Part shown: positions 12,611-62,576 of the stretch, one piece after another | Layout of the letters: every line of letters begins with the position of its first letter | How positions within the stretch are numbered: position 1 is the first letter of the stretch | Source: Chthonomonas sp. | Lineage (GTDB): Bacteria > Armatimonadota > Fimbriimonadia > Fimbriimonadales > Fimbriimonadaceae | Direction of reading: 5' to 3' | Length of the DNA stretch: 64,000 bases | NCBI GenBank assembly: GCA_016788425.1 | Contig: JAEURQ010000002.1 | Location: 62,001 to 126,000, forward strand | The notes under the pieces: generated by a model | The model's input: the letters and a program-made list of their open reading frames with translations, nothing else | Told to the model about the DNA's origin: nothing | Database searches by the model: none | Made by a program: the position numbers and the translations under genes

Positions 12611-13807
12611 TTACGTTGAAAGTTCTTGCGCGACGCGATGATACGCGGCTCGAAAACTCAGGCCCTCGTTCTGAACCAACTCAAAAGCGCGCGTGGCGGC
12701 GTGGATGCTCGGGTCGGTGATCGCTTTCGCCCGCGCGGCATCGAAGGTGATTTTGCCCAGCGCATACGCGGCCACATCAAGCACCAGGTGCGCGCGGTCA
12801 ATCACGCGGAACAAGGGCTCCTTCATGAGTTGATAGTCGCGGTGATAGCCTGAAGTCAGCTTTTCGGTGAGCGTGAGAATCGCGATCAGGTCGGCCGTGG
12901 CCTGCGAGCCGTGCGCCCGAATGAGTTCGAACACGTCGGGGTTGCGCTTCTGCGGCATGATGCTGGAGCCGGTCGAGATCGAATCGTCGAGGCGGATGAT
13001 ACCGAACTCTTGGCTGGCGAAGAGGCATACATCCGCCGCCATTCGCCCGAGGTCGTGGAGAATTTGCGTCAGCGCAAAGGCGAGCGCCGACTCGGCCTTG
13101 CCTCGGCTGGTCTGGCAGGCGGTCACCGGTTGTTGCGGTGCGGCGAATCCGAGTTCCTCGCTCGTACGATCTCGGTCGAGCGACAGCCCGGGCGTGCCAT
13201 AGCCCGCCGCCGAACCGAGCGGGCACAAGCTGGCAAGATCATCCGCCGCCCGTAGAAGGGCCAAGTTGGAGCGCAAGTTACTCGCGAATCCGCCCGCCCA
13301 AAGCGCTACCGAACTCGGCATCGCCTGTTGTAAGTGCGTGTATCCCGGAATCGAAATCTCGCCACTCGTAGCGGTGAGCTTGTCGAACGCCACGGCGACC
13401 TGTTCGAGCTGAGCCGTGAACTGCTCGATTTCGGCGCGCAGGTACAGCCGAATCGCGGTGAGCACCTGGTCGTTGCGACTGCGGCCCAAGTGAACCTTGC
13501 CGCCGAGATCGCCGAGTCGGGCGGTGAGTTGCGCCTCAATCGCGGTGTGGCAATCTTCCTGATCGAGCGAAATCTGCCATCCGCCCGCCTCGTGATCCAG
13601 GCCGACTTGAGCCAAGCCGTCGAGCAGTCCCTGCGCCTCCTCGGACGTCAGCAACCCTTTAGCCGCAAGCATGCGCACGTGCGCCCGGCTGGCGCGGATG
13701 TCGTGCGCCACAAGCCGCTGATCGAGCAGGTAATCGTGGCCGACCGTGAATTCGAGAATCTGTTGGTCGGTGGATTTGCCCTGCCCCCAAAGTCGCGGCG
13801 AACTCAC
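12611..13807 (-). CDS. argH: argininosuccinate lyase
   Basis: Splits argininosuccinate into arginine and fumarate, the last step of arginine synthesis. The fumarase-superfamily signature GSSIMPQKRNPDVFELIRA is present, along with KVHLGRSRNDQV and YTHLQQAMPSS that form the shared active site. The GTG start at 13807 overlaps the argB stop by 4 bp (GTGA). At 398 residues it is shorter than the usual 450-470: it ends just after FRAAYHRVAQELST, so the short C-terminal extension seen in many homologues is missing while the catalytic parts are complete. It is the last gene of the operon. Confidence 0.95.
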   Translation of the reverse strand: MSSPRLWGQGKSTDQQILEFTVGHDYLLDQRLVAHDIRASRAHVRMLAAKGLLTSEEAQGLLDGLAQVGLDHEAGGWQISLDQEDCHTAIEAQLTARLGDLGGKVHLGRSRNDQVLTAIRLYLRAEIEQFTAQLEQVAVAFDKLTATSGEISIPGYTHLQQAMPSSVALWAGGFASNLRSNLALLRAADDLASLCPLGSAAGYGTPGLSLDRDRTSEELGFAAPQQPVTACQTSRGKAESALAFALTQILHDLGRMAADVCLFASQEFGIIRLDDSISTGSSIMPQKRNPDVFELIRAHGSQATADLIAILTLTEKLTSGYHRDYQLMKEPLFRVIDRAHLVLDVAAYALGKITFDAARAKAITDPSIHAATRAFELVQNEGLSFRAAYHRVAQELST

Positions 13808-14676
13808 GGCGTCACCATCGTGCCGCATCCTTCGTTGGTAAATAGCTCGGCCAAGACGCTGTCCGGATACTCGTACGAAATCACGTGCACCCGCTCGACC
13901 CCGCCGGTGAGCGCGGACTTGGCCGCGCCGGACTTGGGCAGCATCCCTGCGTGGACAACGCCCTTGGCTTCCAGGGCCTCGAGCTCGGCAATGGTGATTT
14001 CGCTCATGAGCGTCTCCGGCTTGTCCACGTCGCCCATAATCCCGCGCGGCTTCGTGATGAGAATCAGTTTGCTCGCGCCGAGCGCGACGGCAATCGCCGA
14101 AGCGACATCGTCGGCGTTGATGTTGAGCACCGTCCCGGCGTCGTCGGCAGCCAGCGAACTCACCACGGGCACGAAACCCTGCTCGACCATCATCCGTAGC
14201 GGTGACACATCGAGCGAGGCGATATCGCCAACCTGCCCGAAGTCCACCGTCTCGCCGGTGGGTAGCTTGCGCGGAGGTCGCTGCGTGGCTTTCACAATGC
14301 CGGCGTCAATGCCGCTCACTCCCAACACGTTGAGGTGTTGCGCTCGGCATGCGGCAAGAATTTTGGTGCGAACGGTTCCGTTGAGCGCCATCACCATCGC
14401 TTCCACCATCGCGGGCGAGGTCACCCGCCGCCCGGCTACAAAGTGCGACTCGACGCCGAGTTGCTCGCCGAGAGCCGTGGCTTGCGGGCCGCCGCCGTGG
14501 ACAATCACCAACCCGATTCCGAGTTGGTGCAACACGTTGAGTTGCTCCACCAACTGCCGAAGCCGCGACTCGTCCTCCACGGCCTCGCCACCGACCTTGA
14601 CGACGAGCAGCTGATTGCGAAACAGCCGCAGGTAGGGCACGGCAGTCTTAAGGGAGAGAAGGTTGGCTAGTTCCAT
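13804..14676 (-). CDS. argB: acetylglutamate kinase
   Basis: Phosphorylates N-acylglutamate using ATP. The amino-acid kinase fold is shown by LLVVKVGGEAVED near residue 20, the nucleotide loop VIVHGGGPQATALGEQLG near 50, and LNINADDVASAIAVALGASKLILIT in the second half. 290 residues is normal. ATG 14676 is chosen because it gives the usual N-terminus and overlaps the argF' stop by 10 bp, consistent with coupled translation. The N-terminal extension typical of arginine-feedback-inhibited kinases is short here (about 15 residues), so feedback control cannot be read from the sequence. Whether it acts on the acetyl or succinyl form depends on the argF' specificity. Confidence 0.95.
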   Translation of the reverse strand: MELANLLSLKTAVPYLRLFRNQLLVVKVGGEAVEDESRLRQLVEQLNVLHQLGIGLVIVHGGGPQATALGEQLGVESHFVAGRRVTSPAMVEAMVMALNGTVRTKILAACRAQHLNVLGVSGIDAGIVKATQRPPRKLPTGETVDFGQVGDIASLDVSPLRMMVEQGFVPVVSSLAADDAGTVLNINADDVASAIAVALGASKLILITKPRGIMGDVDKPETLMSEITIAELEALEAKGVVHAGMLPKSGAAKSALTGGVERVHVISYEYPDSVLAELFTNEGCGTMVTP

Positions 14677-15659
14677 GGAGTCAGGTTTTCGAGTTGAGAA
14701 ATGAGGACGCTCTTTTGGGCGTGGAGTCGGTTTTCGGCTTGCTGAATGACCACCGAGCGCGGCCCATCGAGCACTTCGTCGGCGACCTTCACGTTGCGGC
14801 GAACCGGAAGACAGTGCATAAACTTGGCTTGCGGGTCGGCGGTGGCGAACCACGATTCGCGCACGCACCAGTCGCGTAGGTCGGCGCGCTTGGCCAGTTC
14901 GGCTTCGGGTTGGCCGTAGAATTCCGGGCTGCACCACGACTTGCAATAGAGCACCTGGGCGCCGTCCATCGCATCCGCGCGGTCGTGAGACGTGCGGATG
15001 TGCGCTCCGGCTTCGGTCATCATCGCCTCGGGCAGGTCGTAGCCCTCGGGGCATAGCACTGTGATGTCCATGCCTCGTAGTGCGGCCATGTTGAGCGCCG
15101 CGCGCGGAACCGCGTACGGCAGCGGCTTGGGGTGCCAAGCCCAGCTCAGGACGAACTTGCCGTTCGCGGGCACCTGCAACTCGTCCAGCGTCATCCAATC
15201 GGCGAGCGCCTGGCAAGGGTGGTCGCTGGCGGATTCCATGTTGATCACCGGCTTGGGACTCAGCGCGGCCAAGTGCCGCATGCGCTGGTCGGCCAAATCG
15301 GTGGCGATGTAGGTTTGGTCGGCGAACGAGCGGATGCCAAGCACGTCGCAGTAGGCAGCCAGAACCGGGATCGCCTCCCGGACGTGCTCCACGGCCGCTC
15401 CATCCATCACCGCGCCGTCATGAAACTCGAGCGTCCACGAACCCGCGCCGGGCTGGATGACGACGGACGTTCCGCCTTGCTGCCCGACCGCCGCCTGAAA
15501 CGAGGCTAGCGTCCGCAGACTGGGATTCATAAACAGCAGGCCGATCACGCGCTTGTGGAGGCGGTCCCCATGCGGATTCGCTTTGAGTTCGCGCCCGAGG
15601 TCAACCAAGGCTTGAATCTGCTCGCGCGAGAAGTCGCGAAGAGAAAGGAAATGGTTCAC
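14667..15659 (-). CDS. argF': N-acylornithine carbamoyltransferase (AOTCase/SOTCase type)
   Basis: A 330-residue carbamoyltransferase that would carbamoylate N-acetyl- or N-succinylornithine, not free ornithine. Carbamoyl-phosphate motif NPSLRT is present (with LAS after it where RTR/RMS is usual), then SWTLEFHDGAVMDG, HPCQALADWMTLDE, the diagnostic HPKPLPYAVP and HCLPVRRNV, and the C-terminal AENRLHAQKSVL. These long segments match the Xanthomonas/Bacteroides enzymes rather than standard ArgF. The choice of acetyl or succinyl cannot be made from sequence alone: features of both are mixed. The GTG start at 15659 overlaps the argD stop by 4 bp. No deacylase for the resulting N-acylcitrulline is found in the window. 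Confidence 0.88.
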   Translation of the reverse strand: MNHFLSLRDFSREQIQALVDLGRELKANPHGDRLHKRVIGLLFMNPSLRTLASFQAAVGQQGGTSVVIQPGAGSWTLEFHDGAVMDGAAVEHVREAIPVLAAYCDVLGIRSFADQTYIATDLADQRMRHLAALSPKPVINMESASDHPCQALADWMTLDELQVPANGKFVLSWAWHPKPLPYAVPRAALNMAALRGMDITVLCPEGYDLPEAMMTEAGAHIRTSHDRADAMDGAQVLYCKSWCSPEFYGQPEAELAKRADLRDWCVRESWFATADPQAKFMHCLPVRRNVKVADEVLDGPRSVVIQQAENRLHAQKSVLISQLENLTPWN

Positions 15660-16804
15660 GCCAGCACCTCGCGGAGCGCGGTCGTGAACGCCCCGACGTC
15701 GCTCGCCGAGATGATGAGCGGCGGCAGTAATCGGACGATGTTGGGGTTTTTGGCGTCTCCGGTGAGGAATCCGCGCTGTAGCAACTCGGTTCGAACCGGA
15801 GCCGCGGGTGTGTCCAAATGCAACCCAAGGAGCAAGCCACGACCCGTGACCTGTCGAACTCCGGCCTGCAAGCAGCCATGGATGAGTTGCTCGGACCGCT
15901 CTCGAACTTGCCCCAAGAACCCGGGCGCGCTCACGGCGTGGAGTACAGCTTGCATCGCCGCGCACGCGACCGGTCCGCCGCCGAAGGTCGTGCCGAGCAT
16001 GCCGCGCTTGGCCACTGCGGCGACGGGTGCCGAGCACAGCACCGCCGCGACCGGGATGCCGCCGCCGAGGCCCTTGGCAACGGTGAGAATGTCGGGTTGC
16101 ACCGCCGCGTGCTCGACGGCGAACATCGTGCCGCAGCGTCCGACGCCGGTTTGGACTTCGTCGGCGATGAGGAGAATGCCGCGCTCCTTGGCCAGGCGAG
16201 CCGCCGCTTGCAGAAACGCGGTTTCGCATTCCACGGCTCCGGCGACGCCTTGCACCGGCTCAAAAATGACTGCCGCCGTGTCGTCGGTCATGGCTTGGTC
16301 GAGCGCGGCAATGTCGTTGATCGGCACGCGGTCTACGGCAAATGGCGTCTGCGGAAACGCGTACCAACTCGCGTTGTGGTCGGTCACGGCACCCGCGGCC
16401 GCAGTGCGTCCGTGGAATCCGCCCTGCAAACAGGTCACTCGAGTGCGTCCGGTGTGCAAGAACGCCAGGCGCAGGGCGTTTTCGTTCGCTTCGGCACCGC
16501 TGTTAACCAAGAACGCATGGCCGAGCGGTGCCACCGACGCCAAGGTCGCCAAGGCTTCGCGGCGAATCGCGACGTCAACGGCATTGGTTTGGAAAATCAG
16601 TTGCTGCGCTTGGCTTTGGATGGCCGCGGTGAGCGCCGGATGCGCATAACCGAGAGCGGTCACCGCGTGACCGCCGTAAAAGTCAAGGTACACCTTCCCG
16701 TTCGAATCCCACACCTGACAGCCCGCGCCGCGCACAATCTCCACCGGGAGACGGGCGTAGACGTCGAGCTCGGTGGGCGCGTCAGATCCAGCCAGGAACG
16801 GCAT
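15656..16804 (-). CDS. argD: acetylornithine/succinylornithine aminotransferase
   Basis: A class-III PLP aminotransferase of 382 residues making N-acylornithine from the semialdehyde with glutamate as donor. The PLP lysine lies in TVAKGLGGGIP, the phosphate-binding region in NSGAEANENALR, and LLIADEVQTGVGRCGTMF is the family signature. It starts at ATG 16804 inside the end of argC (23-bp overlap) and ends inside the argF' start. The protein is close to the ArgD group used in the Bacteroidetes-type cluster. Related enzymes also act in lysine synthesis; the location argues for arginine. Confidence 0.94.
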   Translation of the reverse strand: MPFLAGSDAPTELDVYARLPVEIVRGAGCQVWDSNGKVYLDFYGGHAVTALGYAHPALTAAIQSQAQQLIFQTNAVDVAIRREALATLASVAPLGHAFLVNSGAEANENALRLAFLHTGRTRVTCLQGGFHGRTAAAGAVTDHNASWYAFPQTPFAVDRVPINDIAALDQAMTDDTAAVIFEPVQGVAGAVECETAFLQAAARLAKERGILLIADEVQTGVGRCGTMFAVEHAAVQPDILTVAKGLGGGIPVAAVLCSAPVAAVAKRGMLGTTFGGGPVACAAMQAVLHAVSAPGFLGQVRERSEQLIHGCLQAGVRQVTGRGLLLGLHLDTPAAPVRTELLQRGFLTGDAKNPNIVRLLPPLIISASDVGAFTTALREVLA

Positions 16805-17831
16805 TGACCAGGCCCTCCTTTTCGTCGAGGCTAAACAGGCGATTCATCCACTGCACCGCGCCGCCCGCCGCGCCCTTCACCAAGTTGTCGATGACCGACG
16901 TGATGACGACCTGGTTGCCGCTGACGGCCACGCCCAAGTGGCAGCGATTGCTGCCCACGATTTCCTTGAGAGTGGGCATTCCCGCCGCGACCTTGACGAA
17001 CGGCGTATGTGCATAAAATGCAGAAATGAGGTCGGTTACAGCGGCGGTGGACATCGGCTTGCGAAGAGTCGCGAAGCACGTCGCATGAATCCCGCGGGCG
17101 AACGGCCCCGAGTGCGGCACAAAGGCGACGGTCAGGTCGGGCGCGTGGGCTTGCAGAAGCCGGCGGATCTCCGGCGTGTGGCGGTGCACCAGCGGTTGAT
17201 ACGCCCACATAGAGCTTTGGCGATGCGGATGGTGAGTGCCCGCGCCAAGTTGACGCCCCGCGCCCGTGCTCCCCGTGATGGCGCTGACCTGAACCTGCGG
17301 CTCAATGAGCTGGTTCGCGACGAGCGGCGCGATTGCGAGTGTTATGCCGGTGGTGAAGCAGCCTGGGTGCGAGATCATCGCTTCCGGCGTTTCCTTGTCC
17401 AGGTCCGGCAACCCGAAATGAAACTGCGGCAAGAGCGTTGGCCCCTCATGCGGCTTGCCATAAATCTGCTCGTACTCGGCGGCATCGCTGGTGCGGAAGT
17501 CCGCCGAGATATCCACGACGCGAGCCGACGTTCCGCCGGCCAAGAGTTCTTCTAGCACGCGCGCCGTTTCGCCATGCGGCATCGCGCTGAACAGGGCCAC
17601 TTGCCGCTTGCCCGCCAATCGCGGCTTGGCGGATTCGAGATCAGTGAAGGTCAGGTCTTCGGCGACACCGGTGAGGTGCGGAAACACTTCGTCGATGCGC
17701 GTGCCGACCTGACTGGTGGATACCACCGATTCGATGCGGAAATAAGGGTGATTGAGCAAGAGGCCAAGGCATTCAGCGGCGACGTAGCCGCTGCCGCCCA
17801 GGACGATGGTGGGAATGGATTTGTTAAGCAT
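16782..17831 (-). CDS. argC: N-acyl-gamma-glutamyl-phosphate reductase
   Basis: Reduces acylglutamyl phosphate to the semialdehyde with NADPH. VLGGSGYVAAECLGLLLNHP is the Rossmann start, and SHPGCFTTGITLAIAPL contains the catalytic Cys. 349 residues is normal. ATG 17831 overlaps the upstream P-loop gene by 8 bp; an in-frame TTG six bases earlier is less likely. A 13-bp palindrome nearly identical to the argR promoter operator lies inside this gene at 17010-17022. Confidence 0.94.
   Translation of the reverse strand: MLNKSIPTIVLGGSGYVAAECLGLLLNHPYFRIESVVSTSQVGTRIDEVFPHLTGVAEDLTFTDLESAKPRLAGKRQVALFSAMPHGETARVLEELLAGGTSARVVDISADFRTSDAAEYEQIYGKPHEGPTLLPQFHFGLPDLDKETPEAMISHPGCFTTGITLAIAPLVANQLIEPQVQVSAITGSTGAGRQLGAGTHHPHRQSSMWAYQPLVHRHTPEIRRLLQAHAPDLTVAFVPHSGPFARGIHATCFATLRKPMSTAAVTDLISAFYAHTPFVKVAAGMPTLKEIVGSNRCHLGVAVSGNQVVITSVIDNLVKGAAGGAVQWMNRLFSLDEKEGLVNAVPGWI
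17010..17022. promoter_or_regulatory. candidate intragenic ArgR box in argC
   Basis: TGCATAAAATGCA differs at one position from TGCATAATATGCA in the argR promoter operator. Both have TGCAT/ATGCA arms with a 3-bp A/T centre. Under random equal base use about 0.04 matches this good are expected in 64 kb, and AT-rich sites are rarer still in this GC-rich segment. Function is inferred. Confidence 0.45.
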
Positions 17832-18876
17832 GTGCAAGGGAAATGGTGTGGAGCAGGTGGTCGGTCAGGTCCTGTGGATCGTGGCGCGCGTTGATGCTGC
17901 GCACCTTGGTTTCGCGTTCGATCGCCGAGACGCCGGCGAGGTTGTCGGTGGCCGGCCCGGTGATGAGCGCGAGCGGAAGCTGGTGCCGATCGCGCACGAG
18001 GTTGGCGCCGCCGAGCGCGCCGACGGGGTCGGCGGCGGCGAGAATGACGCAGCGCAGGTGCGGCGCGATCTCGGGGTCGTCCAGAATCGCGCCGACGCCA
18101 TAGTCGCCGATCAGCCCGTCGCCGAGTTCAAGCACAATCACGTCCGGCCGAGCCTGGGCGAGGCGGTGAATCATCTGCTTGGTGAGCGTTGGCGCGTTGC
18201 TGGCCTGGGTCGTGACAACGCCCAGGTCGGTGAAAATGACCACCTCGCTCGCGCCCGCGTCCTGCATGCCGAGGATGTCGCGGCGCAGACTCACGCCGGT
18301 GGTTTTGGCTGCGCTCACCTTGAGTCCGCGGTGCGTCAGTTGCTGAATCACCGTGAGGCACGCTTCGGTCTTGCCCGAGTTCATGCTCGTGCCGACCACC
18401 GCGATGATCGGTGGCAAGTCGCGCAGTTGCGTTGATGGAAGGCTCAGGTCGGCGGCGATGTTGGCCGGAACCCCACGTCGGCTGTTGAGGTCAGGGAACG
18501 CCATGACGTTCCCGATGACCTCGCACACGTGCGGCTGGCCGACCATCGGCGAATAGCTCGTGCAGGTGCCGAGCACGCCGCCAAGGTTTAGTAGGTTAAT
18601 CTGGTCGCCGGTCTTGAGCGACGTTGGGATGACACCGGCATAGCCCTGAACCGCGTTTCGGTGGCCAAGCGCCCCGGCGATGATATCGCCCGGCTTGATC
18701 GTGGACATGCGGCCCGAAATGAGTTCGAGCGAGTTGTACTGCGACTTGCTCGTGAGCACGCGGACGGCAATGACATCACCCTCGCGGCAAGGGTACTGAT
18801 CGTCCAGCCGAGCCTCGCGTCGCAGGTTACAGTTCAGCGTGACGCTGGCGATTTTGTCGAGCGTGACCGGTCTCAC
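17824..18876 (-). CDS. P-loop NTPase of BioD/MobB/DUF1611 type in arginine operon
   Basis: A 350-residue cytosolic protein of unknown role. Residues about 1-150 form a beta-rich domain (REGDVIAVRVLTSKSQYNSL, GDIIAGALGHR), followed by a SIMIBI-class P-loop, AVVGTSMNSGKTEACL near 159, with downstream acidic motif VIVLELGDGLIGDYGVG. The P-loop resembles those of dethiobiotin synthetase, MobB and the DUF1611 C-terminal domain. It is placed between argG (4-bp overlap) and argC (8-bp overlap), so it is co-translated with arginine enzymes. None of the known arginine steps needs such a protein; regulation, amidation/ligation or transport of an intermediate are all open. I do not assign a function. 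Confidence 0.7.
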   Translation of the reverse strand: MRPVTLDKIASVTLNCNLRREARLDDQYPCREGDVIAVRVLTSKSQYNSLELISGRMSTIKPGDIIAGALGHRNAVQGYAGVIPTSLKTGDQINLLNLGGVLGTCTSYSPMVGQPHVCEVIGNVMAFPDLNSRRGVPANIAADLSLPSTQLRDLPPIIAVVGTSMNSGKTEACLTVIQQLTHRGLKVSAAKTTGVSLRRDILGMQDAGASEVVIFTDLGVVTTQASNAPTLTKQMIHRLAQARPDVIVLELGDGLIGDYGVGAILDDPEIAPHLRCVILAAADPVGALGGANLVRDRHQLPLALITGPATDNLAGVSAIERETKVRSINARHDPQDLTDHLLHTISLAHA

Positions 18877-20066
18877 GAATCGCCTCCGGCGCGGCCATGG
18901 AGGATTCCGGCTAGGCCATAGAGGCGGCTAAAGCCCTTGGCGTCATCGGCGGTCCATTCGCCCATGGCCTCGCCGTACACGGCGCGCGAGGCGGCGTGCA
19001 AGGAGTGCGGCGAAGAAACTCCGGTGACGAACATGTTGCCGGGGCGAAGTTCGAATTTGACCTCACCGGTCACGCGCTGCTGCGAACTCAGGAAAAGCGC
19101 CTCGATTTCGCGGGCCGCGGGTTCGGTGAAAAGGCCCTCGTGGACCCACTCGCCGTAGCTCGCCGCCACGGTGTCCTTGAGCGCGATCTGGCGCTTCGTG
19201 AGGGTCAGCTTTTCGAGCTCGCGGTGGGCCGGCAGGATGACGCTCGCCGCCGGGGCTTCGAAGGCGACACGGCCCTTGATACCCAGGATGGTTTCGCCAA
19301 GATGGATGCCGCGGCCCAGGCCATAAGCCGCGGCCAACTGGTCAACGGCCAGAATAATCTGCACCGGCGAGCCGGTTACGCCGTCGAGCGCGACCGGTTC
19401 GCCTTGGCGAAACTCCAGCGTGTGAGTACTCGGTCGCAGGGCTTGTTCGAACGCGCCTTGGGTGCGCTGCCAAGCCTCGTTGGGGATGCTGAGCTCGGTG
19501 CCGGTGGTTTCCGCCCCGCCAATCGTCACACCCCACAGCCCCGAATTGATGCTGTAAGTCGCCTTCTGGCCGGGGAAGTCGAGCCCCTCGCTGGCCAGCA
19601 AAGCGAGTTGCTCGTCGCGTCGTGGCGCTTGGTCGCGAACTGGAGCCACGATTTCGACGCCCGGCGCCACCGTGCGCAGGGCGACTTCGAATCGGACTTG
19701 GTCGTTTCCGGCGGCGGTGCACCCGTGGGCAACCGCACCGGCTCCGATTTGGGCGGCGACTTTCGCGGTTTCGCGAGCCTGCAGCGCGCGCTCGGCTCCC
19801 ACGCACAGCGGATAGAGTCCGCCGCGCAAGACGTTGCCGGCGATGAGCCAGCGAACGACCTCACGATAGAACAATTCGGTTGCGGGCACGACGATGTGCT
19901 CCGCCGCGCCGAGCTTCGCGCTGCGTTCGGCGATCTGGCCGAGTTCGTCCGGCGAGAATCCGCCAACGTCAACGGTTACGGTCGTGATTTCGTACCCGGC
20001 TTGGCGCAGAACCGGGATGCACCAACAGGTGTCGAGCCCGCCCGAGAAAGCAAGCGCGAGCTTCAT
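18873..20066 (-). CDS. argG: argininosuccinate synthase (Bacteroidetes/Xanthomonas-like type)
   Basis: Joins citrulline and aspartate using ATP. The PP-loop is LALAFSGGLDTCWCIPVL (Cys where Ser is usual after SGGLDT). GGLYPLCVGAERALQA and HGCTAAGNDQVRFEV correspond to the divergent ArgG branch found with N-acylornithine carbamoyltransferases, not to the common YPLGTSLARP form. 397 residues. ATG 20066 overlaps the argR stop by 4 bp and its stop overlaps the P-loop gene by 4 bp. The enzyme branch supports the N-acylated route. Confidence 0.92.
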   Translation of the reverse strand: MKLALAFSGGLDTCWCIPVLRQAGYEITTVTVDVGGFSPDELGQIAERSAKLGAAEHIVVPATELFYREVVRWLIAGNVLRGGLYPLCVGAERALQARETAKVAAQIGAGAVAHGCTAAGNDQVRFEVALRTVAPGVEIVAPVRDQAPRRDEQLALLASEGLDFPGQKATYSINSGLWGVTIGGAETTGTELSIPNEAWQRTQGAFEQALRPSTHTLEFRQGEPVALDGVTGSPVQIILAVDQLAAAYGLGRGIHLGETILGIKGRVAFEAPAASVILPAHRELEKLTLTKRQIALKDTVAASYGEWVHEGLFTEPAAREIEALFLSSQQRVTGEVKFELRPGNMFVTGVSSPHSLHAASRAVYGEAMGEWTADDAKGFSRLYGLAGILHGRAGGDS

Positions 20067-20479
20067 GCCGTCGCTCCCAGCGCGCTCATCAGCGAGGCTT
20101 GGTCGGCGGCGGTGGCGGTGGCCACAAAGATTGTGTCGTCGCCCGCGACGGTGCCAACGATCTCCGAGCGACCTAAGTTGTCCAGTCTCACCGCGACTAA
20201 CTGCGCCGCGCCGATCGCCGTGCGCAGTACGAGCAGGTTCGGCCCGGCGGGTTTGAGCGACACCAGACCCAGTTCCTGGCTCTGCGGCGGCGTCGGCAGC
20301 ATGTAGCGGCCACGTTGCTTTTGTACGCCCAGGTCGGCCAGGTCCCGGCTGACGCTGCTTTGCGTGACCGCGTAGCCCGCCTGGGTCAGGCTGGTCTGCA
20401 GGTCCTCTTGCGAGCGCACCTCCTGCGCCGTGAGCAGGGAGCGGATGAGCTGCAGCCGTGCGTCCTTTGTCTGTGACAT
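20063..20479 (-). CDS. argR: arginine repressor
   Basis: ArgR/AhrC binds arginine as a hexamer and represses arginine genes. The N-terminal winged helix includes VTQSSVSRDLADLGVQK, and the C-terminal core ends with GTVAGDDTIFVATATAADQASLM containing the GDDT arginine-binding turn. From ATG 20479 it has 138 residues. A consensus promoter is placed so that transcription would begin at this ATG; the ATG at 20485 falls within six bases of the -10 box and is therefore unlikely. First gene of the operon, so autoregulation is expected. Confidence 0.95.
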   Translation of the reverse strand: MSQTKDARLQLIRSLLTAQEVRSQEDLQTSLTQAGYAVTQSSVSRDLADLGVQKQRGRYMLPTPPQSQELGLVSLKPAGPNLLVLRTAIGAAQLVAVRLDNLGRSEIVGTVAGDDTIFVATATAADQASLMSALGATA

Positions 20480-20480
20480 G

Positions 20481-20504
20481 TGCATATTATGTGCATAATA
20501 TGCA
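20481..20504. promoter_or_regulatory. ArgR operator (inverted repeat)
   Basis: Perfect 10-bp arms TGCATATTAT and ATAATATGCA flank GTGC. The right part also reads as the 13-mer palindrome TGCATAATATGCA (20492-20504). It covers the argR -10 box and spacer, so bound repressor would block the argR promoter. The motif resembles known ARG boxes (TGAATAATxATTCA-like and CATGCAT-like forms). Confidence 0.75.
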
Positions 20505-20514
20505 AAATTGTCAA
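20486..20514 (-). promoter_or_regulatory. argR promoter, leaderless
   Basis: On the reverse strand TTGACA (20509-20514), 17-bp spacer, CATAAT (20486-20491). Six bases later is the argR ATG at 20479, where transcription would start. There is no room for a ribosome binding site, so the mRNA should be leaderless. Confidence 0.75.
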
Positions 20515-20535
20515 CCCCCAGACTTGGGTTATACT
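20508..20535 (+). promoter_or_regulatory. promoter of metal-efflux operon, leaderless
   Basis: TTGTCA (20508-20513), 16-bp spacer, TATACT (20530-20535), then six bases (CGCAGC) and ATG at 20542. Its -35 hexamer overlaps the argR -35 hexamer on the other strand by five bases because TTGTCAA reads as a -35 in both directions. Confidence 0.65.
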
Positions 20536-20541
20536 CGCAGC

Positions 20542-20931
20542 ATGAGGAAGGTTGCGCCCTGGCTAATGCTTTGGTGCCTGCTCGTGGGTCTCGTCCACGA
20601 CCTCTTGCCGCACCATCATCACGGGTCGGCGGGCGCGGTGAGCGCCGAGCTTTGCTTCACGCAGGTTCACGGTCCTCATCAGGCCAATATTGAGTGTGGA
20701 GACCATGGCTGCCACGAGGAGATTTCTGGGCACGAAGATCGCGTCGCGGCCCAAACTCGGTCGCGCAACCTGGTGGTTGAGCCCTTCACTTGCAACCCCG
20801 TCGTGGCGTTGGGCATCGCGTTTCCGAGCCACACAATTCGCGAGCCCTTCATCGATCCGGTCGCTCAGGTGGCCAGTGGAGAAGGGGAGCATCGGCCCAA
20901 TCGTGGCCCGCCCGCGCTAGTTCTTAGCTAG
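20542..20931 (+). CDS. His-rich secreted or membrane-anchored small protein of efflux operon
   Basis: A 129-residue protein with a hydrophobic N-terminal segment (APWLMLWCLLVGLVHDLL) followed by potential metal ligands: HHHH immediately after it, then CFTQVHGPHQANIECGDHGCHEE with three Cys and several His. The remainder is a soluble tail. I do not know the family; position as first gene before the tripartite efflux genes and the His/Cys cluster suggest periplasmic metal binding. ATG 20542 is supported by the promoter spacing and by the N-terminal segment; upstream in-frame codons overlap the promoter. Confidence 0.6.
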   Translation: MRKVAPWLMLWCLLVGLVHDLLPHHHHGSAGAVSAELCFTQVHGPHQANIECGDHGCHEEISGHEDRVAAQTRSRNLVVEPFTCNPVVALGIAFPSHTIREPFIDPVAQVASGEGEHRPNRGPPALVLS

Positions 20932-21003: not shown

Positions 21004-22209
21004 ATGAAAGCAACTCGAATATTTTCCCTCGTAATTTTAACAGGGTCTTTCCATGCCTTGGCATTCGGCCAAGACTTGGGTGACCTGGTGCAAGTCGCGC
21101 TCAGCAAGAGCCAGCGCATCGCGGCTCAACGCCACTTGGTGCGGGAGGCCGAACTGGCGGCCGGATCGCTGCGATCCCCGCTCAACCCCGAACTCGAGAT
21201 CGCCCCGGGGGTGGGGTTCACCAACTCTGGCTTCGCGTTGGGGCAAAGCTTCGATGTCTCGGGCCAGCGTCGCGCGCTTGCCCAGATGGCCTTGACGTCC
21301 GTGTCGCTGGCCCAGGCCGAGGTCCGCAAAACGGAGCTTGAGGTCGGCGCGCAGGTGGTCGAGCAGTTGATGCGACACGCCGCGGCTCGCCGCGAGGCGG
21401 CCCTGGCTCAGACTGCGCTGAACCTCGCACGGACCACGCGCGACGCCGTGAAAAAGCGGCAGGAGATCGGCGAAGTCCCAGCGATTCAAACCAGTCGCGC
21501 CGAGCTTCAGGTGATCCGCGCCGAGCAGACCCTTGCCATCGCGCAGGCGCAGGTCGCCGATCAGAAACTCGCGCTGGGATTTTGGTTCGACTCCTCGATC
21601 ACCGATAGCCTGGAAGACGAACTGACCTTCGACAACACGGTTGACGGCAAGCCCAATCGGCCCGAGTCGGCGATCGCCATGGCTCACGTCGGGGTTGCGC
21701 TAGCCGACGAGCAGGTCGCCCGACGGGAGTCGGCGCCCAAGCTTTTCGTCGGTATCGCCGCCGACACGTGGAGTCTGGATCGACGACCTTTTCGTAGCGA
21801 GAACATTGGCCTGCAAGCGCGGTTGACGATGCAGCCGTTTGACCGTCGCACCAACCGCAAGCAGGTGCAATCCAAGGAGGCGGCCACCCGCGCCGCCCGG
21901 GCCGAGCTTGTCGAAATCGACCGCCGCATTGCCTTGGAGGTGGCGCGGGCGCAAGCCGAACTGGCCGCCGCCCAAGCCGTACGGGAGCGATACGCGAGCG
22001 GGGTTGTGCCCCGAGCCGCCGAACTGGTGCGAGCCATGCAAGACGGCTACACGCAGGGATTCGTGACCCTTCTGGAACTCCTTGAGGCGCAGAACACGCT
22101 CGCCGAAACCGCAACCGAAGCCTCGGCGGCGACGCTCCGATTCCAGTTGGCCCAACTCAAACTCATGACCGCCTTGGGGCAAGTCCCGGGCACGGAGGTG
22201 ACGCGATGA
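21004..22209 (+). CDS. TolC/CzcC-like outer-membrane efflux protein
   Basis: A 401-residue outer-membrane factor that forms the exit duct of an RND efflux system. It has a signal peptide (TRIFSLVILTGSFHALAFG) and two repeats of long coiled-coil helices with the OEP pattern, for example LVQVALSKSQRIAAQRHLVREAEL and the second-repeat LVRAMQDGYTQGFVTLLELLEAQNTLAET. It ends by overlapping the adaptor gene by 4 bp. The 72-bp gap upstream shows no clear promoter, so it is likely transcribed from 20535. Confidence 0.88.
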   Translation: MKATRIFSLVILTGSFHALAFGQDLGDLVQVALSKSQRIAAQRHLVREAELAAGSLRSPLNPELEIAPGVGFTNSGFALGQSFDVSGQRRALAQMALTSVSLAQAEVRKTELEVGAQVVEQLMRHAAARREAALAQTALNLARTTRDAVKKRQEIGEVPAIQTSRAELQVIRAEQTLAIAQAQVADQKLALGFWFDSSITDSLEDELTFDNTVDGKPNRPESAIAMAHVGVALADEQVARRESAPKLFVGIAADTWSLDRRPFRSENIGLQARLTMQPFDRRTNRKQVQSKEAATRAARAELVEIDRRIALEVARAQAELAAAQAVRERYASGVVPRAAELVRAMQDGYTQGFVTLLELLEAQNTLAETATEASAATLRFQLAQLKLMTALGQVPGTEVTR

Positions 22210-24371
22210 AACGAACCTTACTGTTGACATCGCTGCTTCTTGCGGCGACCATGGCTCGAGCGGGCGAGGAAGATCACGCGCATGGGCCGGACGGTCGGCA
22301 CCTTCCGCCCACCCAGACCACCTCGAATCCGGAATCGCAACTGCTGAGTCACCACGACCTTCGGATTGAGGGCGCGGACGGCAAGTCCATGCTCGGCTGC
22401 ACCGTGGAGAGCAAGATTTGGCGCAAGGACAAGCCGAGCGAAATCGTGCACACCGAGGCGAACGCCTATGAGGCGGAGAACGAGGTTTACGGCTCGCACA
22501 TGACTTATCGCGCGCCCGGCGAGTACGTGATTTCGGAGGGCATTACATTCCCCGATGGCCGTAAGACGACGGTCGAGTTTCCGATTATTGTTGCGGCGGA
22601 ACAAGCCGCTGCCGCCGAAGACGAGCATGCTCACGGGCCGAACTATCTGGCCATTGTCGGCGGAATTCTCGGCGTTGGCGCGGCTCTAGTGATCGCTTTC
22701 CGCATGGGTAAACGGAGCGGACGCGGCCCGATGGTGGCCATGCTTTTGCTCAGCGGCGTGCTGGTCACTGGGCCACGCGCGCAGGAATCCGAGGCGGCGC
22801 ATGCGCACGGACCCGATGGTCGGCACATCATTCCGATGGCCAGCAAGGGTTCGGTCGGGCCGAAACTGCCTGCTTACGTGGGCCAAGCGGGTTCGGAATC
22901 CCAAACGAAAACTGTTGAGGGCGTGAAGTTCACCCTCACGATAGAGAACGAAGAAACTGTCCCCGACCCCGACGTCGTGCAACTTTCCGAGCAGGAAGTC
23001 CGGCTCACCGGACTGAAAACTGCCCAGGTGCAGGTGTCGCCTGCCGCGGGCGGCATGTACGCCACCGGGCGAGTGCAGGCCAACCCGAACGGGCGGGTGA
23101 TTGTAAACTCGCGAACCGGCGGTCGTGTGCTGACGCTTAGCGCGTTGCCGGGCACCGAGGTGCGAAAGGGCCAGGTTCTGGCGGTGCTTGAAAGCACCGA
23201 ATTGGCCGATGCGCAAGCCTCCATGAGTGCGGCAATTGCCGACCAGCGGCAAGTGGCGGCCGCCGTGCAAAGCGCTCGCTCGGCGATTGCCGCGGCCGAG
23301 AGTCGCGTAGCGACCGCGGAGCGAACCCTCGCTCGGCAACGACAGTTTGCAAAGGCGGGAGAATTTAGTTCGCCGACGCTTGAAGCAGCCAAAGCCGAAG
23401 CATCTCGGGTCGCCGCAGAACTCAGTTCGGCGCGGACTCGATTGATGGCCACTGAGGCGACGGTGGGGCGGTTGGCGCGTGGCGTGGCGAGCGGTGTTGT
23501 GGCTCAGCGCGAACTTGATGCCGCGCGCGCCGAAGTCGCGTTGGCCAATACCGCGCTCGGAAATGCCCATCGCCAGGATGCCGTGGCGAAGGCGGCGCTC
23601 GCCCGCGAACAAGGGATCGCCAAGCAAGGCTTGCGCGACGCGAAGGAAGTTGAACAAGCCGCGGCGGACCTGAGCCAAGCTCGGGCCGAACTCACGAGTC
23701 GGCGCAGTGACCTGACTCGGGCCATCGCCGATCAGGCTCGCGCGGCAACCGCGCTGCGGATTAGCGGCGATCAGGTTCGCCTGCTTGGCGGGCGACCCGG
23801 CGGCGGCCATCGCATTAGCATCACGGCGCCCATTTCGGGCGAAGTGGAATCGCGGTCGGTCAGCCTCGGCGAGACCATCGCGAGCGGGCAGCAACTCTTT
23901 GAGCTGCTCAATGCGAGCGTGGTTTGGGTGATCTGCGACATCTACGAAAAAGACATTCGCCGGGTGCAGATCGGTCAGCATGTGGACGTCGTGGCCGATG
24001 CGCTGCCAGGGCTGACTTTCCCCGGCGAGATCGCGTTTGTCCACAACGAGGTCGAGGAGAAAACTCGCACCACCAAGGTACGCGTGGCGATCAACAATCC
24101 CGGCGAGCGGCTGAAGCAAAACATGTTCGTGCGAGCCCAAATCGGCATCGAATCGGGCCGCCAAGTGACGGTTCCCACGAGCGCCGTTCAGATCGTTAAG
24201 GGCATGTCCATGGTCTTTCTCAAGCAGGGTGAAGGCGTGTTCCGCAAACACATCGTGCAGGTGCAGAGCACCCTCGGCGACAAGACGATTTTGCGGACGG
24301 AGCTACCGCCCGCGAGCGTTGTGGTCACCGACGGGTCTTACCAGTTGGCGGCGATTGCCGGGAGTCGGTAA
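22206..24371 (+). CDS. RND periplasmic adaptor fused to N-terminal FixH/YtkA-like domain
   Basis: A 721-residue protein, much longer than ordinary CzcB/CusB adaptors (about 400-500). A first signal peptide (RTLLLTSLLLAATMARA) is followed by HAHGPDGRH (24-32), an Ig-like FixH/YtkA-type domain (about 40-130), HAHGP (141-145) and a membrane helix at 147-165. A second hydrophobic segment beginning at Met176 looks like another signal peptide and leads to a second HAHGPDGRH (199-207). From about 245 on it is a standard adaptor: beta-barrel and lipoyl halves, a long alpha hairpin (about 335-510), and the membrane-proximal barrel TAPISGEVESRSVSLGE. Two once-separate genes appear joined. The His motifs suggest metal capture. 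Confidence 0.85.
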   Translation: MKRTLLLTSLLLAATMARAGEEDHAHGPDGRHLPPTQTTSNPESQLLSHHDLRIEGADGKSMLGCTVESKIWRKDKPSEIVHTEANAYEAENEVYGSHMTYRAPGEYVISEGITFPDGRKTTVEFPIIVAAEQAAAAEDEHAHGPNYLAIVGGILGVGAALVIAFRMGKRSGRGPMVAMLLLSGVLVTGPRAQESEAAHAHGPDGRHIIPMASKGSVGPKLPAYVGQAGSESQTKTVEGVKFTLTIENEETVPDPDVVQLSEQEVRLTGLKTAQVQVSPAAGGMYATGRVQANPNGRVIVNSRTGGRVLTLSALPGTEVRKGQVLAVLESTELADAQASMSAAIADQRQVAAAVQSARSAIAAAESRVATAERTLARQRQFAKAGEFSSPTLEAAKAEASRVAAELSSARTRLMATEATVGRLARGVASGVVAQRELDAARAEVALANTALGNAHRQDAVAKAALAREQGIAKQGLRDAKEVEQAAADLSQARAELTSRRSDLTRAIADQARAATALRISGDQVRLLGGRPGGGHRISITAPISGEVESRSVSLGETIASGQQLFELLNASVVWVICDIYEKDIRRVQIGQHVDVVADALPGLTFPGEIAFVHNEVEEKTRTTKVRVAINNPGERLKQNMFVRAQIGIESGRQVTVPTSAVQIVKGMSMVFLKQGEGVFRKHIVQVQSTLGDKTILRTELPPASVVVTDGSYQLAAIAGSR

Positions 24372-27300
24372 ATGTTGAACCGACTGATTGAATTGAGCCT
24401 GCGCCAGCGGGTTCTGGTGGTGGTACTCGCCATCATGGTGTGCCTTGGCGGGGTCGCCACGGTCATGCGCATGGACGTGGACGTGTTGCCCGACCTTAAC
24501 CGGCCGGTGGTCACCGTGATGACCGAGGCGCACGGCATGGCGCCGGAGGAAACCGAGGCGCTCGTTTCGTTCCCCATCGAAACCATGATGAACGGCGCGA
24601 CCGGCGTACAGCGGGTCCGCTCGGCGAGCAGCGCCGGGTTCAGCATCGTGTTTGTCGAGTTCGATTGGGGGATGGACATCTTCCGGGCGCGGCAGATTGT
24701 TAGCGAAAAGCTGCAACTCGCGCAGGCGCGGTTGCCGCAAGGATCGGTGGCGTCGCTGGCTCCAATCAGCTCGATCATGGGCGAGATCATGCTGGTCTCG
24801 CTCTCGAGCAAATCGGGCAAAACCACACCGCTCGACCTACGCGCGCAAGCCGACTTTGTGGTGCGTCCGCGGCTGCTCGCGGTGCCCGGAGTTTCGCAGG
24901 TGGTGCCGATCGGCGGCGGAACAAAGCAGTATCAAATCCTCACCACGCCCGAGCGTCTTAAGAGCGCCGATGTGACCGTGGACGAACTGGTTGAGGCAGC
25001 GAAAAACAGCAATGTCAACGCCGGGGCCGGCTTCGTTCAGGAGGCTCATCAAGAGTCGGTGGTTCGGATTTTGGGTCGAGTGCGCGATCTGGACGACATC
25101 GCGCAGACGCCGATCAAGTCGGTGGATGGCGTGCCGGTTACGATCGGCCAAGTCGCCGATTTGCAGTTTGCCAAGGGGCAGCCTCGCGGCGACGCCAGCG
25201 TAGATGGGCGGGCCGCGGTGATCCTTTCGGTGCAGAAGCAGCCCGACGCCAACACGCTTGCGCTGACCAAGAACCTGGATCGCGCGCTAGCCGAGGTGGG
25301 CGCCACCTTGCCCGACGACATCGAGCTGAACAAGAACCTGTTCCGGCAGGAGACGTTCATTAACACCGCGATCCGCAACGTGGTTCGGGCGCTGGTTGAG
25401 GCTGGACTCATCGTGCTGGTGATCGTGCTCGGGTTCTTGCTGAACGTCCGTGCCACGCTCATCTCGCTCGTGAGCATCCCGGTCTCGTTCATCGTCACCA
25501 TGTTGCTGCTCGACCGGTTCGGCATCAGCGTCAACACGATGACGCTGGGCGGGCTCGCCATCGCCATCGGCTTGGTCGTGGATGACAGCATCGTGGACGT
25601 GGAGAACGTGGTGCGCCGCTTGCGGTTGAACGCTCTCTCGGCGGAGCCGCAGTCGCCGCTGCGCGTGATTTATCATGCCAGCGCCGAGGTGCGAAACAGC
25701 ATCGTCTTTGCGACGCTGATCATCGTGCTCGTGTTCGTGCCGCTGCTCTCGCTAGAAGGCATGGAAGGGCGCGTGTTCTTGCCGCTCGGACTCGCCTTTA
25801 TCTTCTCGATGATGGCCTCGCTGTTGGTCTCGCTGACCCTCACGCCGGCACTTTGTGCGTTGCTACTGCGGCATTCGCGTCCGGCCGCCGAGGAGCACGA
25901 ACCCAAGCTGGTCGCGTGGCTCAAAAAGCTCAACGCCCCGTTGGTTCGTTGGTCGATCCGACATCCTTGGACAGTGATGGGCGCGACGGCGGTGATCTCG
26001 ATTGGCGCGCTCGCCTGCCTGCCGCTGCTGGGGCGGGAATTCTTGCCCAAGTTCAACGAGGGTTCGCTCGCGATCGCCGCTACGTTACCGCCCGGCACGA
26101 GTCTCGGCGAGAGCAACCGGATTGCGACGATCATTGAGAAAGCGGCCCTCACGGTGCCGGAGGTGACGCACGTTGGACGCCGCACAGGGCGGGCAGAACT
26201 CGACGAACACGCGGAAGGTGTGAACCACTCCGAGCTGGATATCGGGCTCCGAAACTCCAAACGAGGAAAGGACGCGGCGGCGAAGGAACTCCGCGAAAAG
26301 CTGGGCGAGATTCCCGGCGTGTATATGGCATTTGGTCAACCGATTAGTCACCGACTCGACCACCTTTCCTCGGGCGTGAGGGCAGCCTTGGCGGTCAAAG
26401 TCTTCGGGCCGGATCTCGATGAATTGCGCCGCTTGGCCAAGGACGTTGAAGCCACGATGCGCACGATTCCGGGCGTGGTGGATCTGCAGATTGAGCCGCA
26501 AGTGGAGGTGCCGCAGTACAGCATCAGCATTGATCGCGCGGCGGCGGGTCGCTACGGCGTCACGCCGGAGCACTTGGCGGAGACGCTCGAAGTGGCGATC
26601 GGCGGGCACGTGGTTTCGCAGGTGTTGCAGGGTCAGCTGACCTTTGATCTCGCCGTGTGGTTTGCGCCTGAGGCTCGGCGCGACCTCGCGGCTATGCAGT
26701 CCATGCTCATCAACACACCCGCCGGCGTGGCAATTCCGCTTTCGCAAGTGGCGACGGTGCGTCGCGAAACTGGCCCCAACACGATCAATCGTGAGAACGC
26801 CTCGCGACGAATTGTGGTGCAGGCGAATGTGGAGGGGCGCGACCTCGACGGCGTCGTGCGAGAACTCCAATCGAACCTCGGGACCAAGCAAAAGGCGTGG
26901 CCGCGCGGTTACTACGTCGAGTTCGGCGGGCAGTTCCAATCGCAGCAGAGCGCGATGGCCCGGATCCTTCTGCTCGGCGGATTCACCGTCATCGGGGTGT
27001 TCTTGCTACTGCAACTGGCGCTGAAATCGTGGCGGCTTGCGCTCCAGGTGATGGTCAACCTGCCCATGGCGATGGTCGGTGGGGTGGTCGCGCTGCTTCT
27101 CACCGGCGGAATCCTCTCGGTGGCGTCCATGGTCGGGTTCATCACCTTGTTCGGCATCGTCACGCGCAACGGCATCATGATGCTGGCGCACTATATGCAC
27201 CTGATGCGCGAGGAAGGCGAGGAGTTCAGCGAGGCCATGATTGTCCGGGGCACCCAGGAGCGGCTTGCGCCGGTGCTCATGACCGCGCTCGCCGCCGCGC

Positions 27301-27479
27301 TCGGGTTGCTGCCGCTGGCCATTAGTTTTGGTCAGCCCGGCAAGGAGTTGCTGCAGCCAATCGCGGTCGTGATTTTGGGCGGCTTGCTGTTCAGCACGTT
27401 CCTGGATCAGGTCGTGATGCCGGCGATGTTTTGGGTGTTCGGACGCCACGAGCGGCCGACCGAACCGGACTTCGTCTAA
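24372..27479 (+). CDS. heavy-metal RND efflux pump (CzcA/CusA family)
   Basis: A 1035-residue inner-membrane proton-driven pump. The HME-RND pattern is clear: MLNRLIELSLRQRVLVVVLA at TM1, the periplasmic porter region RMDVDVLPDLNRP, and TM4 with acidic residues in IGLVVDDSIVDVENVVRR used in proton relay. GREFLPKFNEGSLAI begins the second half and TM10-12 close it. It starts 1 bp after the adaptor stop. Metal specificity (Co/Zn/Cd or Cu/Ag) cannot be fixed; a CusA-type methionine pair is not obvious. Its stop overlaps the convergent PadR gene by 4 bp. Confidence 0.93.
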   Translation: MLNRLIELSLRQRVLVVVLAIMVCLGGVATVMRMDVDVLPDLNRPVVTVMTEAHGMAPEETEALVSFPIETMMNGATGVQRVRSASSAGFSIVFVEFDWGMDIFRARQIVSEKLQLAQARLPQGSVASLAPISSIMGEIMLVSLSSKSGKTTPLDLRAQADFVVRPRLLAVPGVSQVVPIGGGTKQYQILTTPERLKSADVTVDELVEAAKNSNVNAGAGFVQEAHQESVVRILGRVRDLDDIAQTPIKSVDGVPVTIGQVADLQFAKGQPRGDASVDGRAAVILSVQKQPDANTLALTKNLDRALAEVGATLPDDIELNKNLFRQETFINTAIRNVVRALVEAGLIVLVIVLGFLLNVRATLISLVSIPVSFIVTMLLLDRFGISVNTMTLGGLAIAIGLVVDDSIVDVENVVRRLRLNALSAEPQSPLRVIYHASAEVRNSIVFATLIIVLVFVPLLSLEGMEGRVFLPLGLAFIFSMMASLLVSLTLTPALCALLLRHSRPAAEEHEPKLVAWLKKLNAPLVRWSIRHPWTVMGATAVISIGALACLPLLGREFLPKFNEGSLAIAATLPPGTSLGESNRIATIIEKAALTVPEVTHVGRRTGRAELDEHAEGVNHSELDIGLRNSKRGKDAAAKELREKLGEIPGVYMAFGQPISHRLDHLSSGVRAALAVKVFGPDLDELRRLAKDVEATMRTIPGVVDLQIEPQVEVPQYSISIDRAAAGRYGVTPEHLAETLEVAIGGHVVSQVLQGQLTFDLAVWFAPEARRDLAAMQSMLINTPAGVAIPLSQVATVRRETGPNTINRENASRRIVVQANVEGRDLDGVVRELQSNLGTKQKAWPRGYYVEFGGQFQSQQSAMARILLLGGFTVIGVFLLLQLALKSWRLALQVMVNLPMAMVGGVVALLLTGGILSVASMVGFITLFGIVTRNGIMMLAHYMHLMREEGEEFSEAMIVRGTQERLAPVLMTALAAALGLLPLAISFGQPGKELLQPIAVVILGGLLFSTFLDQVVMPAMFWVFGRHERPTEPDFV

Positions 27480-28057
27480 GGCTGTGGGCGGAGCGTGTCG
27501 AGGATGCGCTCCGCCCAACCGGGTTCGGCGTTTATGGGTTGAACAACCCACTCGCGGACAATCCGCAGCCAGGCGATGCGGGCCCGGGTTTCCAGCACCG
27601 ACGACACCGTGGCGAGCGCCCCAAAGTAGTCGCCGATGTCCTCGTTTTGCGGGATCAAACCCTCGCAGCGCCGTTCAAACTCCTGGAGCTTGCGGATCGA
27701 TACATCGATGAAGGCGAGCCGATCGGCGGGCGAAAGTGCCTCCAGAAAAAAGAACCGCAGGCGCAGCAGATCGGCGGAGTGGGCGACATCCATCATCGGC
27801 ACGTCGGGGCCAACCCAATCGGCCAAGACTCGCTGGCCTTCGGGCGTGATCTGAACCCGGCCATCTTCGAGCGACTCGATGAGGCCGAGTTTCAGCAAGC
27901 GTTTCGCGACCGAATACGCGGTTCCGGCCCGCGATTTGTGATAGGTGCTCGCCGAGGAGGAGAGTTCCATCATCACCGCGTAGGTGGTGCTGGGTCCGCG
28001 CAGATACGTCATGCCGAGCACGGTCATTTCGATCGTCGAAAACTTTCTGGCAGCCAT
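27476..28057 (-). CDS. PadR family transcriptional regulator
   Basis: A 193-residue winged-helix repressor. The N-terminal domain (MTVLGMTYLRGPSTTYAVMMELSSSASTYHKSRAGTAY in residues about 12-50) matches PadR, with wing LIESLEDGRVQITPEGQRVL, and the C-terminal part is the helical dimerisation domain of the PadR_C/Vir type. ATG 28057 is used; an in-frame TTG six bases earlier is also possible. A palindrome in the intergenic region with the divergent hydrolase gene is the likely operator. Inducer unknown. Confidence 0.86.
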   Translation of the reverse strand: MAARKFSTIEMTVLGMTYLRGPSTTYAVMMELSSSASTYHKSRAGTAYSVAKRLLKLGLIESLEDGRVQITPEGQRVLADWVGPDVPMMDVAHSADLLRLRFFFLEALSPADRLAFIDVSIRKLQEFERRCEGLIPQNEDIGDYFGALATVSSVLETRARIAWLRIVREWVVQPINAEPGWAERILDTLRPQP

Positions 28058-28083
28058 GGTCAAAATCCTGGAACTCTCTGATT

Positions 28084-61515: not shown

Positions 61516-62576
61516 CCACCACCCTCGAAGTTGCGAGGCACGTTTTGCGCGAGGACATCCGTCCTCGCGCCGAACTTATTGACCAAAGTACCGTTGACCT
61601 CCGCGAGGCGTTTGACACGCTCGGCCAGCACGGCCTCATGGCGTTGCGCGCCCCCGCATCGCTCGGCGGCCCAGCGTGGAGCGACGCCGATTTCCGCGAG
61701 TTTCAACTCGAAGTGGCTCGCGCCAGCGGGACTCTCGCCTTCCTGCAAACTCAACAGCAGCGCGCGGTCGCGATGATCAGCAAGATGGCTCCGCCCGAAG
61801 TCGCCGAGCGGATGCTCTTGGGCACAAGCACCAACAACCGAACGATCGGGATTGCGTTTAGTCAGCTGCGCAAGGATGGGCAACCCGCCCTCACCGCGAC
61901 GCCGGACGGCGATGGCTACCGAGTCAACGGCAAAATGCCCTGGATCACGGGGCTCGGCTTTTTTGAGCACATTCTGATCGGCGCAACCTTGCCCGATGGC
62001 CGCACGCTGTTCGCCCGGACGCCGTTTGCCCCAAGCGCAAACCTTTCCCTCAGTGAGCCGATGCAGCTGGCGGCGATGGGCACCGCGCTCACGGTCTCGG
62101 GCGTTGCTCGCGACTTGCCAATTCCGGCGAGCGAGGTCGTGAGCATCGAGGCGGGCGACTGGATTCACCAGAACGATCGGCTGAACGTCACCCTCCAGGC
62201 CACCTTTGCGCTCGGCTGTTCGCGGGCGGCGATTGACTTGCTCGCGAAGACGGAAGTCGAGAACGCATTCCTCAGCAAGTGGCACGAACTCGTGGAGTTG
62301 GTCAATCAGCAAGGATTGCCCATGGCCGAGAAGCTCGCCATCCGCGCCACCGCGATCGAATTCATGGGCCGCGCCGCCCACGCCGCGCTCATCGCGAGCG
62401 GCGGTCGCGGCATCGCGCTCAGCCATTCCGCGCAGCGCATCGCCCGCGAAGCGTTCGTGTTTAGCGTGTCGGCGATCACGCCGGATGTTCAGTCGGCAGC
62501 CCTGCGGACCATCGCGAACAACCTCAATCTTGCCGAAAGTCCTAACACTTTGAACGCAAATAAAATTCGGGCGTAA
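61512..62576 (+). CDS. acyl-CoA dehydrogenase-like flavoprotein
   Basis: A 354-residue protein of the ACAD fold. N-terminal helical part (TLEVARHVLREDIRPRAELIDQ, DTLGQHGLMALRAPASLGG), middle FAD-binding part (GYRVNGKMPWITG), and C-terminal helical part. The usual catalytic Glu segment and the family RDARxxxI ending are replaced (REAFVFSVSAITPDVQ), so it may belong to the flavin monooxygenase-like or non-canonical group. GTG start 61512 overlaps the preceding gene by 4 bp (GTGA). Substrate unknown. Confidence 0.75.
   Translation: MTTTLEVARHVLREDIRPRAELIDQSTVDLREAFDTLGQHGLMALRAPASLGGPAWSDADFREFQLEVARASGTLAFLQTQQQRAVAMISKMAPPEVAERMLLGTSTNNRTIGIAFSQLRKDGQPALTATPDGDGYRVNGKMPWITGLGFFEHILIGATLPDGRTLFARTPFAPSANLSLSEPMQLAAMGTALTVSGVARDLPIPASEVVSIEAGDWIHQNDRLNVTLQATFALGCSRAAIDLLAKTEVENAFLSKWHELVELVNQQGLPMAEKLAIRATAIEFMGRAAHAALIASGGRGIALSHSAQRIAREAFVFSVSAITPDVQSAALRTIANNLNLAESPNTLNANKIRA

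Follow-up and report, generated by a model that had tools for sequence, protein, structure and literature searches.

A compact divergent pair of predicted leaderless promoters with a common -35 element between an arginine operon and a heavy-metal efflux operon in a Fimbriimonadaceae genome

In the divergent argECBH operon of Escherichia coli, reportedly described by Piette and colleagues in 1982, an ArgR operator lies between the divergent promoters of arginine genes. The locus analyzed here likewise has a predicted ArgR operator between divergent promoters. However, both arms of argECBH carry arginine genes, whereas here the second arm encodes a metal pump. The locus also resembles the lysG/lysE pair of Mycobacterium tuberculosis, in which a regulator and an exporter diverge from overlapping promoters and the exporter transcript is leaderless (PMC5648196), as predicted here. 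In that system LysG activates its lysine exporter (PMC5648196), while the regulator and exporter of our locus are functionally unrelated. Like the bidirectional promoters of Warman and Grainger (PMC12825309, PMC10268837), the locus is nearly symmetrical, with two polymerase orientations that would exclude each other. Those promoters are defined by overlapping -10 elements and starts 7–25 bp apart, whereas our predicted starts are 63 bp apart and the common element is the -35, placing the locus outside that class. Finally, leaderless genes of other phyla carry a -10-like signature just before the open reading frame (PMC3160421, PMC12340547), and in Deinococcus leaderless -10 promoters become stronger with a -35 placed at 17 bp (PMC12340547). 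The genome studied here shares with Deinococcus-Thermus and Actinobacteria a TANNNT motif about 12 nt before the start, mostly without a -35 (PMC12340547, PMC3160421), but it probably belongs to the Fimbriimonadaceae (Armatimonadota) and at this locus sets two opposed promoters on a common -35. Our literature search found no paper on leaderless genes in Armatimonadetes and none on back-to-back promoters with a common -35.

The window, i.e. the whole 64,000-nucleotide stretch of DNA analyzed, corresponds to positions 62001–126000 of contig C2 in a genome of 2.67 Mb. Its arginine repressor has its nearest database matches in Armatimonadetes/Fimbriimonadaceae, which makes this family the most likely source. 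Genome-wide counts were made on 2.06 Mb of this genome, taken in pieces, with crude gene calls for which the first in-frame ATG was used. For comparison, 20 related genomes were analyzed. The two operons, leftward from argR and rightward from a small exported protein, and the elements between them are as follows (coordinates are those of the window):
13804–20066, minus strand: remaining arg operon, in the order argG, P-loop/DUF1611-like gene, argC, argD, N-acetylornithine carbamoyltransferase (argF'), argB
20063–20479, minus strand: argR, arginine repressor (PF01316 and PF02863 above cut-off)
20477–20479, minus strand: predicted argR start codon (ATG whose first base is 20479), also the predicted transcription start, separated from the -10 by six bases
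20481–20490, no strand: predicted second ArgR half-box, incomplete, TGCATATTAT, overlapping the argR -10
20486–20491, minus strand: argR -10 element CATAAT (5/6; promoter scan; kept before argR in relatives)
20492–20504, no strand: predicted ArgR-type operator core TGCATAATATGCA / TGCATATTATGCA, within the argR promoter spacer
20508–20514, no strand: shared -35, TTGTCA on the plus strand (20508–20513) and TTGACA on the minus strand (20514–20509)
20513–20530, no strand: AACCC-N8-GGGTT dyad filling the efflux promoter spacer, a candidate operator from its sequence
20530–20535, plus strand: efflux-operon -10 element TATACT (5/6; promoter scan)
20542–20931, plus strand: small His-rich exported protein, 129 aa, first efflux-operon gene (signal peptide by eye, PHHHH motif)
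21004–22209, plus strand: outer-membrane efflux protein, TolC/CzcC type (PF02321, E 2.8e-31)
22206–24371, plus strand: periplasmic adaptor, CusB/CzcB type (PF16576; TIGR01730 above cut-off)
24372–27479, plus strand: RND pump, CusA/CzcA heavy-metal family (TIGR00914, 802.9 bits, cut-off 701)

The first-pass annotation had named an arginine operon and a metal efflux operon, and Pfam and NCBIfam matches support both identities, the latter as a heavy-metal RND system in which a pump above the TIGR00914 cut-off is accompanied by adaptor and outer-membrane genes. The coordinates it gave for the two promoters are all exact. Forward, TTGTCA is followed by a 16-nt spacer, TATACT, six bases and the ATG at 20542; in reverse, TTGACA is followed by a 17-nt spacer, CATAAT (20491–20486), six bases and the ATG at 20479. 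The reverse (argR) promoter matches the consensus at 11/12 positions and the forward (efflux) promoter at 10/12. A promoter scan of 5 kb returned four sites, compared with 0.6 in shuffled sequences, and these two promoters scored best. TTGACA at 17 nt from a hexamer with at least 5/6 of TATAAT occurs only five times on both strands of the 2.06 Mb. Exact TTGACA with a good -10 gave 12 matches at spacers of 16–18 nt against about 0.5 per spacer elsewhere in the same 2.06 Mb, and is therefore a real promoter signature in this genome. The two -35 matches are not independent, as any TTGACAA reads TTGTCAA on the opposite strand and TTGTCA comes automatically. The case for the forward promoter is therefore made chiefly by TATACT and by how far it lies from the ATG. 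The AACCC-N8-GGGTT pattern was found at one other place only in the 2.06 Mb, and judging by its sequence this 5-bp dyad could be a metal-sensor binding site.

The proposed back-to-back layout, with leaderless starts and one common -35, is supported by these elements together with a genome-wide leaderless signature. Of 1403 genes in the 2.06 Mb, 99 carry TANNNT precisely 12 nt ahead of their first in-frame ATG, compared with 4 of 2112 out-of-frame ATGs used as controls. With a strict -10 motif, a sharp peak appears with the first base 12 nt before the ATG (38/1403 versus 1/2112 controls), and in a first sample a TATAAT-like hexamer preceded the ATG in 20 of 563 cases against 0 of 750. Leaderless genes are thus common in this Fimbriimonadaceae genome, with the signature on about 7% of first ATGs. 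Both the argR and the efflux -10 elements lie at exactly the peak distance of 12 nt, and no Shine-Dalgarno sequence precedes either ATG 20479 or ATG 20542. By this combination of features, leaderless initiation is predicted at both promoters, with strong support. The fold at the 5′ end of the efflux mRNA is ordinary (z 0.35). At leaderless promoters as a class we found no enrichment of -35 hexamers in this genome, and a small rise of -35-like hexamers 40–42 nt upstream was taken as noise. The common hexamer may therefore be of little functional weight.

The longest argR reading frame begins at an earlier in-frame ATG at 20485, which touches the -10. In several relatives this early ATG is out of frame, which suggests that it is part of the operator and that the second ATG, at 20479, is the likely start. 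The hexamer CATAAT (CATAGT in two) precedes argR in the 20 relatives, with an in-frame start 5–8 nt after it in 15 of them. The perfect 13-bp operator core at 20492–20504 is the only exact copy genome-wide, next to one other site with a single mismatch; a matching ArgR-type box lies upstream of argR in most relatives. The ARG-box assignment is made by resemblance and position and describes a predicted operator, whose palindrome overlaps the promoter as in ArgR-controlled operons. In the canonical E. coli design, two 18-bp boxes are separated by 3 bp (PMC6640053), or about 21 bp start to start. Our locus departs from this spacing, with boxes about 11 bp apart, whereas in most relatives they are about 20 bp apart. 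The upstream box begins 13 bp from the -10 here but 21–23 bp from it in 13 of the 20 relatives, whose box spacing is close to the canonical one. The boxes here are thus about 9 bp closer than those of the relatives. A perfect TTGACA at argR also occurs only here, while relatives have 2–4 of 6 matches at the equivalent place. Probably, a shortening of about 9 bp between the operator boxes brought the hexamer to the 17-bp position, which would explain both the short box distance and the perfect TTGACA. The family appears to have conserved the autoregulation of argR by way of a -10 contained in the operator.

The efflux half shows a different pattern. Most relatives preserve the gene order of the arg operon, but not one of the 20 has this efflux operon in a divergent orientation to argR. 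The neighbor upstream of argR differs from relative to relative and frequently is not in divergent orientation; examples, named by eye, are a metal-transporter-like gene, adenosine deaminase and a ribosomal protein gene. The nearest case is genome G064, where a distant RND pump (24% identity) is encoded upstream of argR in the same orientation, with another gene in between. In a same-genus genome (L163, G036:C254), on a possibly chimeric contig, argR directly follows what by eye is an rplB-like gene. In other genomes, homologous efflux operons open with the same kind of His-rich protein, starting at the equivalent residue, but do not have this promoter layout, and neither TATACT nor its spacing is conserved in them. 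The evidence for the efflux promoter comes from one species. Sequence comparison marks the promoter and operator of argR as an ancestral trait of the family, and the efflux neighbor and the TTGACA -35 as lineage-specific. As none of the 20 relatives compared shows the pairing, nothing in the comparison points to selection maintaining a switch. The layout looks like a local accident of neighboring genes in one species and not a proven genetic switch.

The compact layout is also not unique. In the sampled genome, nine further divergent gene pairs show a -10 at 11–13 nt before each of the two starts, with 29–74 bp between start codons, compared with 3, 1 and 0 pairs at control offsets. The argR pair, which was missed by the crude gene caller, would be the tenth. 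Double-leaderless divergent pairs showed no significant excess over independence (20 observed, P = 0.096), giving no evidence of selection for the layout. A perfect common -35 was seen only at the argR/efflux pair. The promoter arrangement looks real and neat, and is an ordinary combination of known parts. Divergent leaderless genes leave so little room that promoters overlap. A broader idea is that short divergent spacers in leaderless-rich genomes routinely make two promoters overlap. Polymerase exclusion would then link operons of unrelated function, in this case for arginine synthesis and metal efflux, and ArgR would act on both; this seems to us rather unlikely.

The reading we favor, and consider quite probable, is a compact divergent pair of leaderless promoters with a common -35, in which the argR half is ancestral, coupling is weak and ArgR hinders both sides. 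A sigma-70-type promoter with its -10 within the ArgR operator would drive the arg operon leftward, with the transcript beginning at the argR ATG, and arginine-bound ArgR would switch the operon off by autorepression. The heavy-metal efflux operon would be read rightward from the second leaderless promoter. One near-palindromic hexamer would act as the -35 for both, in a genome whose leaderless promoters mostly have no recognizable -35. As two polymerases would not occupy the site simultaneously, strong activity on one side would lower the other, and at ordinary activity the coupling between the two operons would probably be weak. The data show the sequence elements, the leaderless signature across the genome, the conserved argR half and the lack of conservation of the pairing; in this scheme we infer the start sites, ArgR binding, and the competition together with its sign.

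Single polymerase occupancy would follow from the geometry, in which the two sigma-4 domains would contact one and the same 7-bp segment. Exclusive binding is plausible because 20508–20514 has no room for sigma region 4 of two holoenzymes at once. As we read it, expression of the two sides need not be mutually exclusive under single occupancy. The five E. coli bidirectional promoters that were tested, whose starts are much closer, showed no competition in basal transcription; competition arose only under strong activation of one side (PMC12825309). The ArgR footprint covers 37 nt, E. coli operators overlap the -10 and -35, and ArgR sites over the -35 repress (PMC6640053). Here only 3 bp separate the operator core from the common -35, a 37-nt footprint would reach the hexamer, and the operator sits where upstream contacts of the efflux promoter would be expected. 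With the common -35 and the DNA upstream of the efflux promoter both within its likely footprint, bound ArgR would more likely hinder both promoters than relieve efflux. An indirect rise of efflux through ArgR, as the first-pass annotation had suggested, is possible but not favored; the ArgR step of that story probably has the wrong sign, and the specific arginine-metal link is probably incidental.

A tentative alternative is that a single operator controls both sides, with ArgR strongly repressing argR and efflux as at E. coli argECBH, and an incidental dependence of efflux on arginine as the result. The operator (20481–20504) abuts the common -35, and in E. coli ArgR sites over the -35 repress (PMC6640053). 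Seen from the efflux promoter, however, the operator is upstream of the -35, in a region also used by activators, arginine and metals have no functional connection, and the pairing is not conserved. We think it improbable that the efflux promoter match arose by chance and that transcription of the operon begins at another place. TATACT stands exactly 12 nt before a homology-supported ATG, where a 5/6 hexamer occurs at 1 of 2112 control ATGs; the ATG has no Shine-Dalgarno sequence before it, and the -35 is the best among 102 leaderless candidates. These points count against chance, despite the lack of conservation in homologous operons and the automatic origin of TTGTCA from TTGACAA. Least credible is that the operons are mutually exclusive and that ArgR on the argR -10 frees the site, so that arginine sufficiency raises metal efflux: starts 63 bp apart on one common -35 and the competition possible under strong activity of one side (PMC12825309) speak for it, but basal competition was absent at the five tested E. 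coli promoters (PMC12825309), ArgR 3 bp from the -35 should obstruct efflux too, and relatives do not have the pairing.

Some further genes in or next to the two operons deserve mention. The exported protein at 20542–20931, which has a C-terminal APP-like tail besides its PHHHH motif, precedes the efflux operon in several genomes and matched no Pfam or NCBIfam family. A gene at 27479–28063 (minus strand), PadR-like by eye and with no family above cut-off, lies where the efflux operon ends and is a candidate controller of the operon. In the arg operon, the carbamoyltransferase at 14670–15611 (minus strand) is of the N-acetylornithine type (NF003384, 350 bits, cut-off 288), and arginine synthesis therefore probably runs through acetylcitrulline. 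The P-loop gene at 17824–18876 (minus strand), with weak MobB/DUF1611 matches, lies between argG and argC in the same order in 19 of the 20 relatives. Given that the pathway uses N-acetylornithine carbamoyltransferase, this gene may supply a missing step such as deacetylation.
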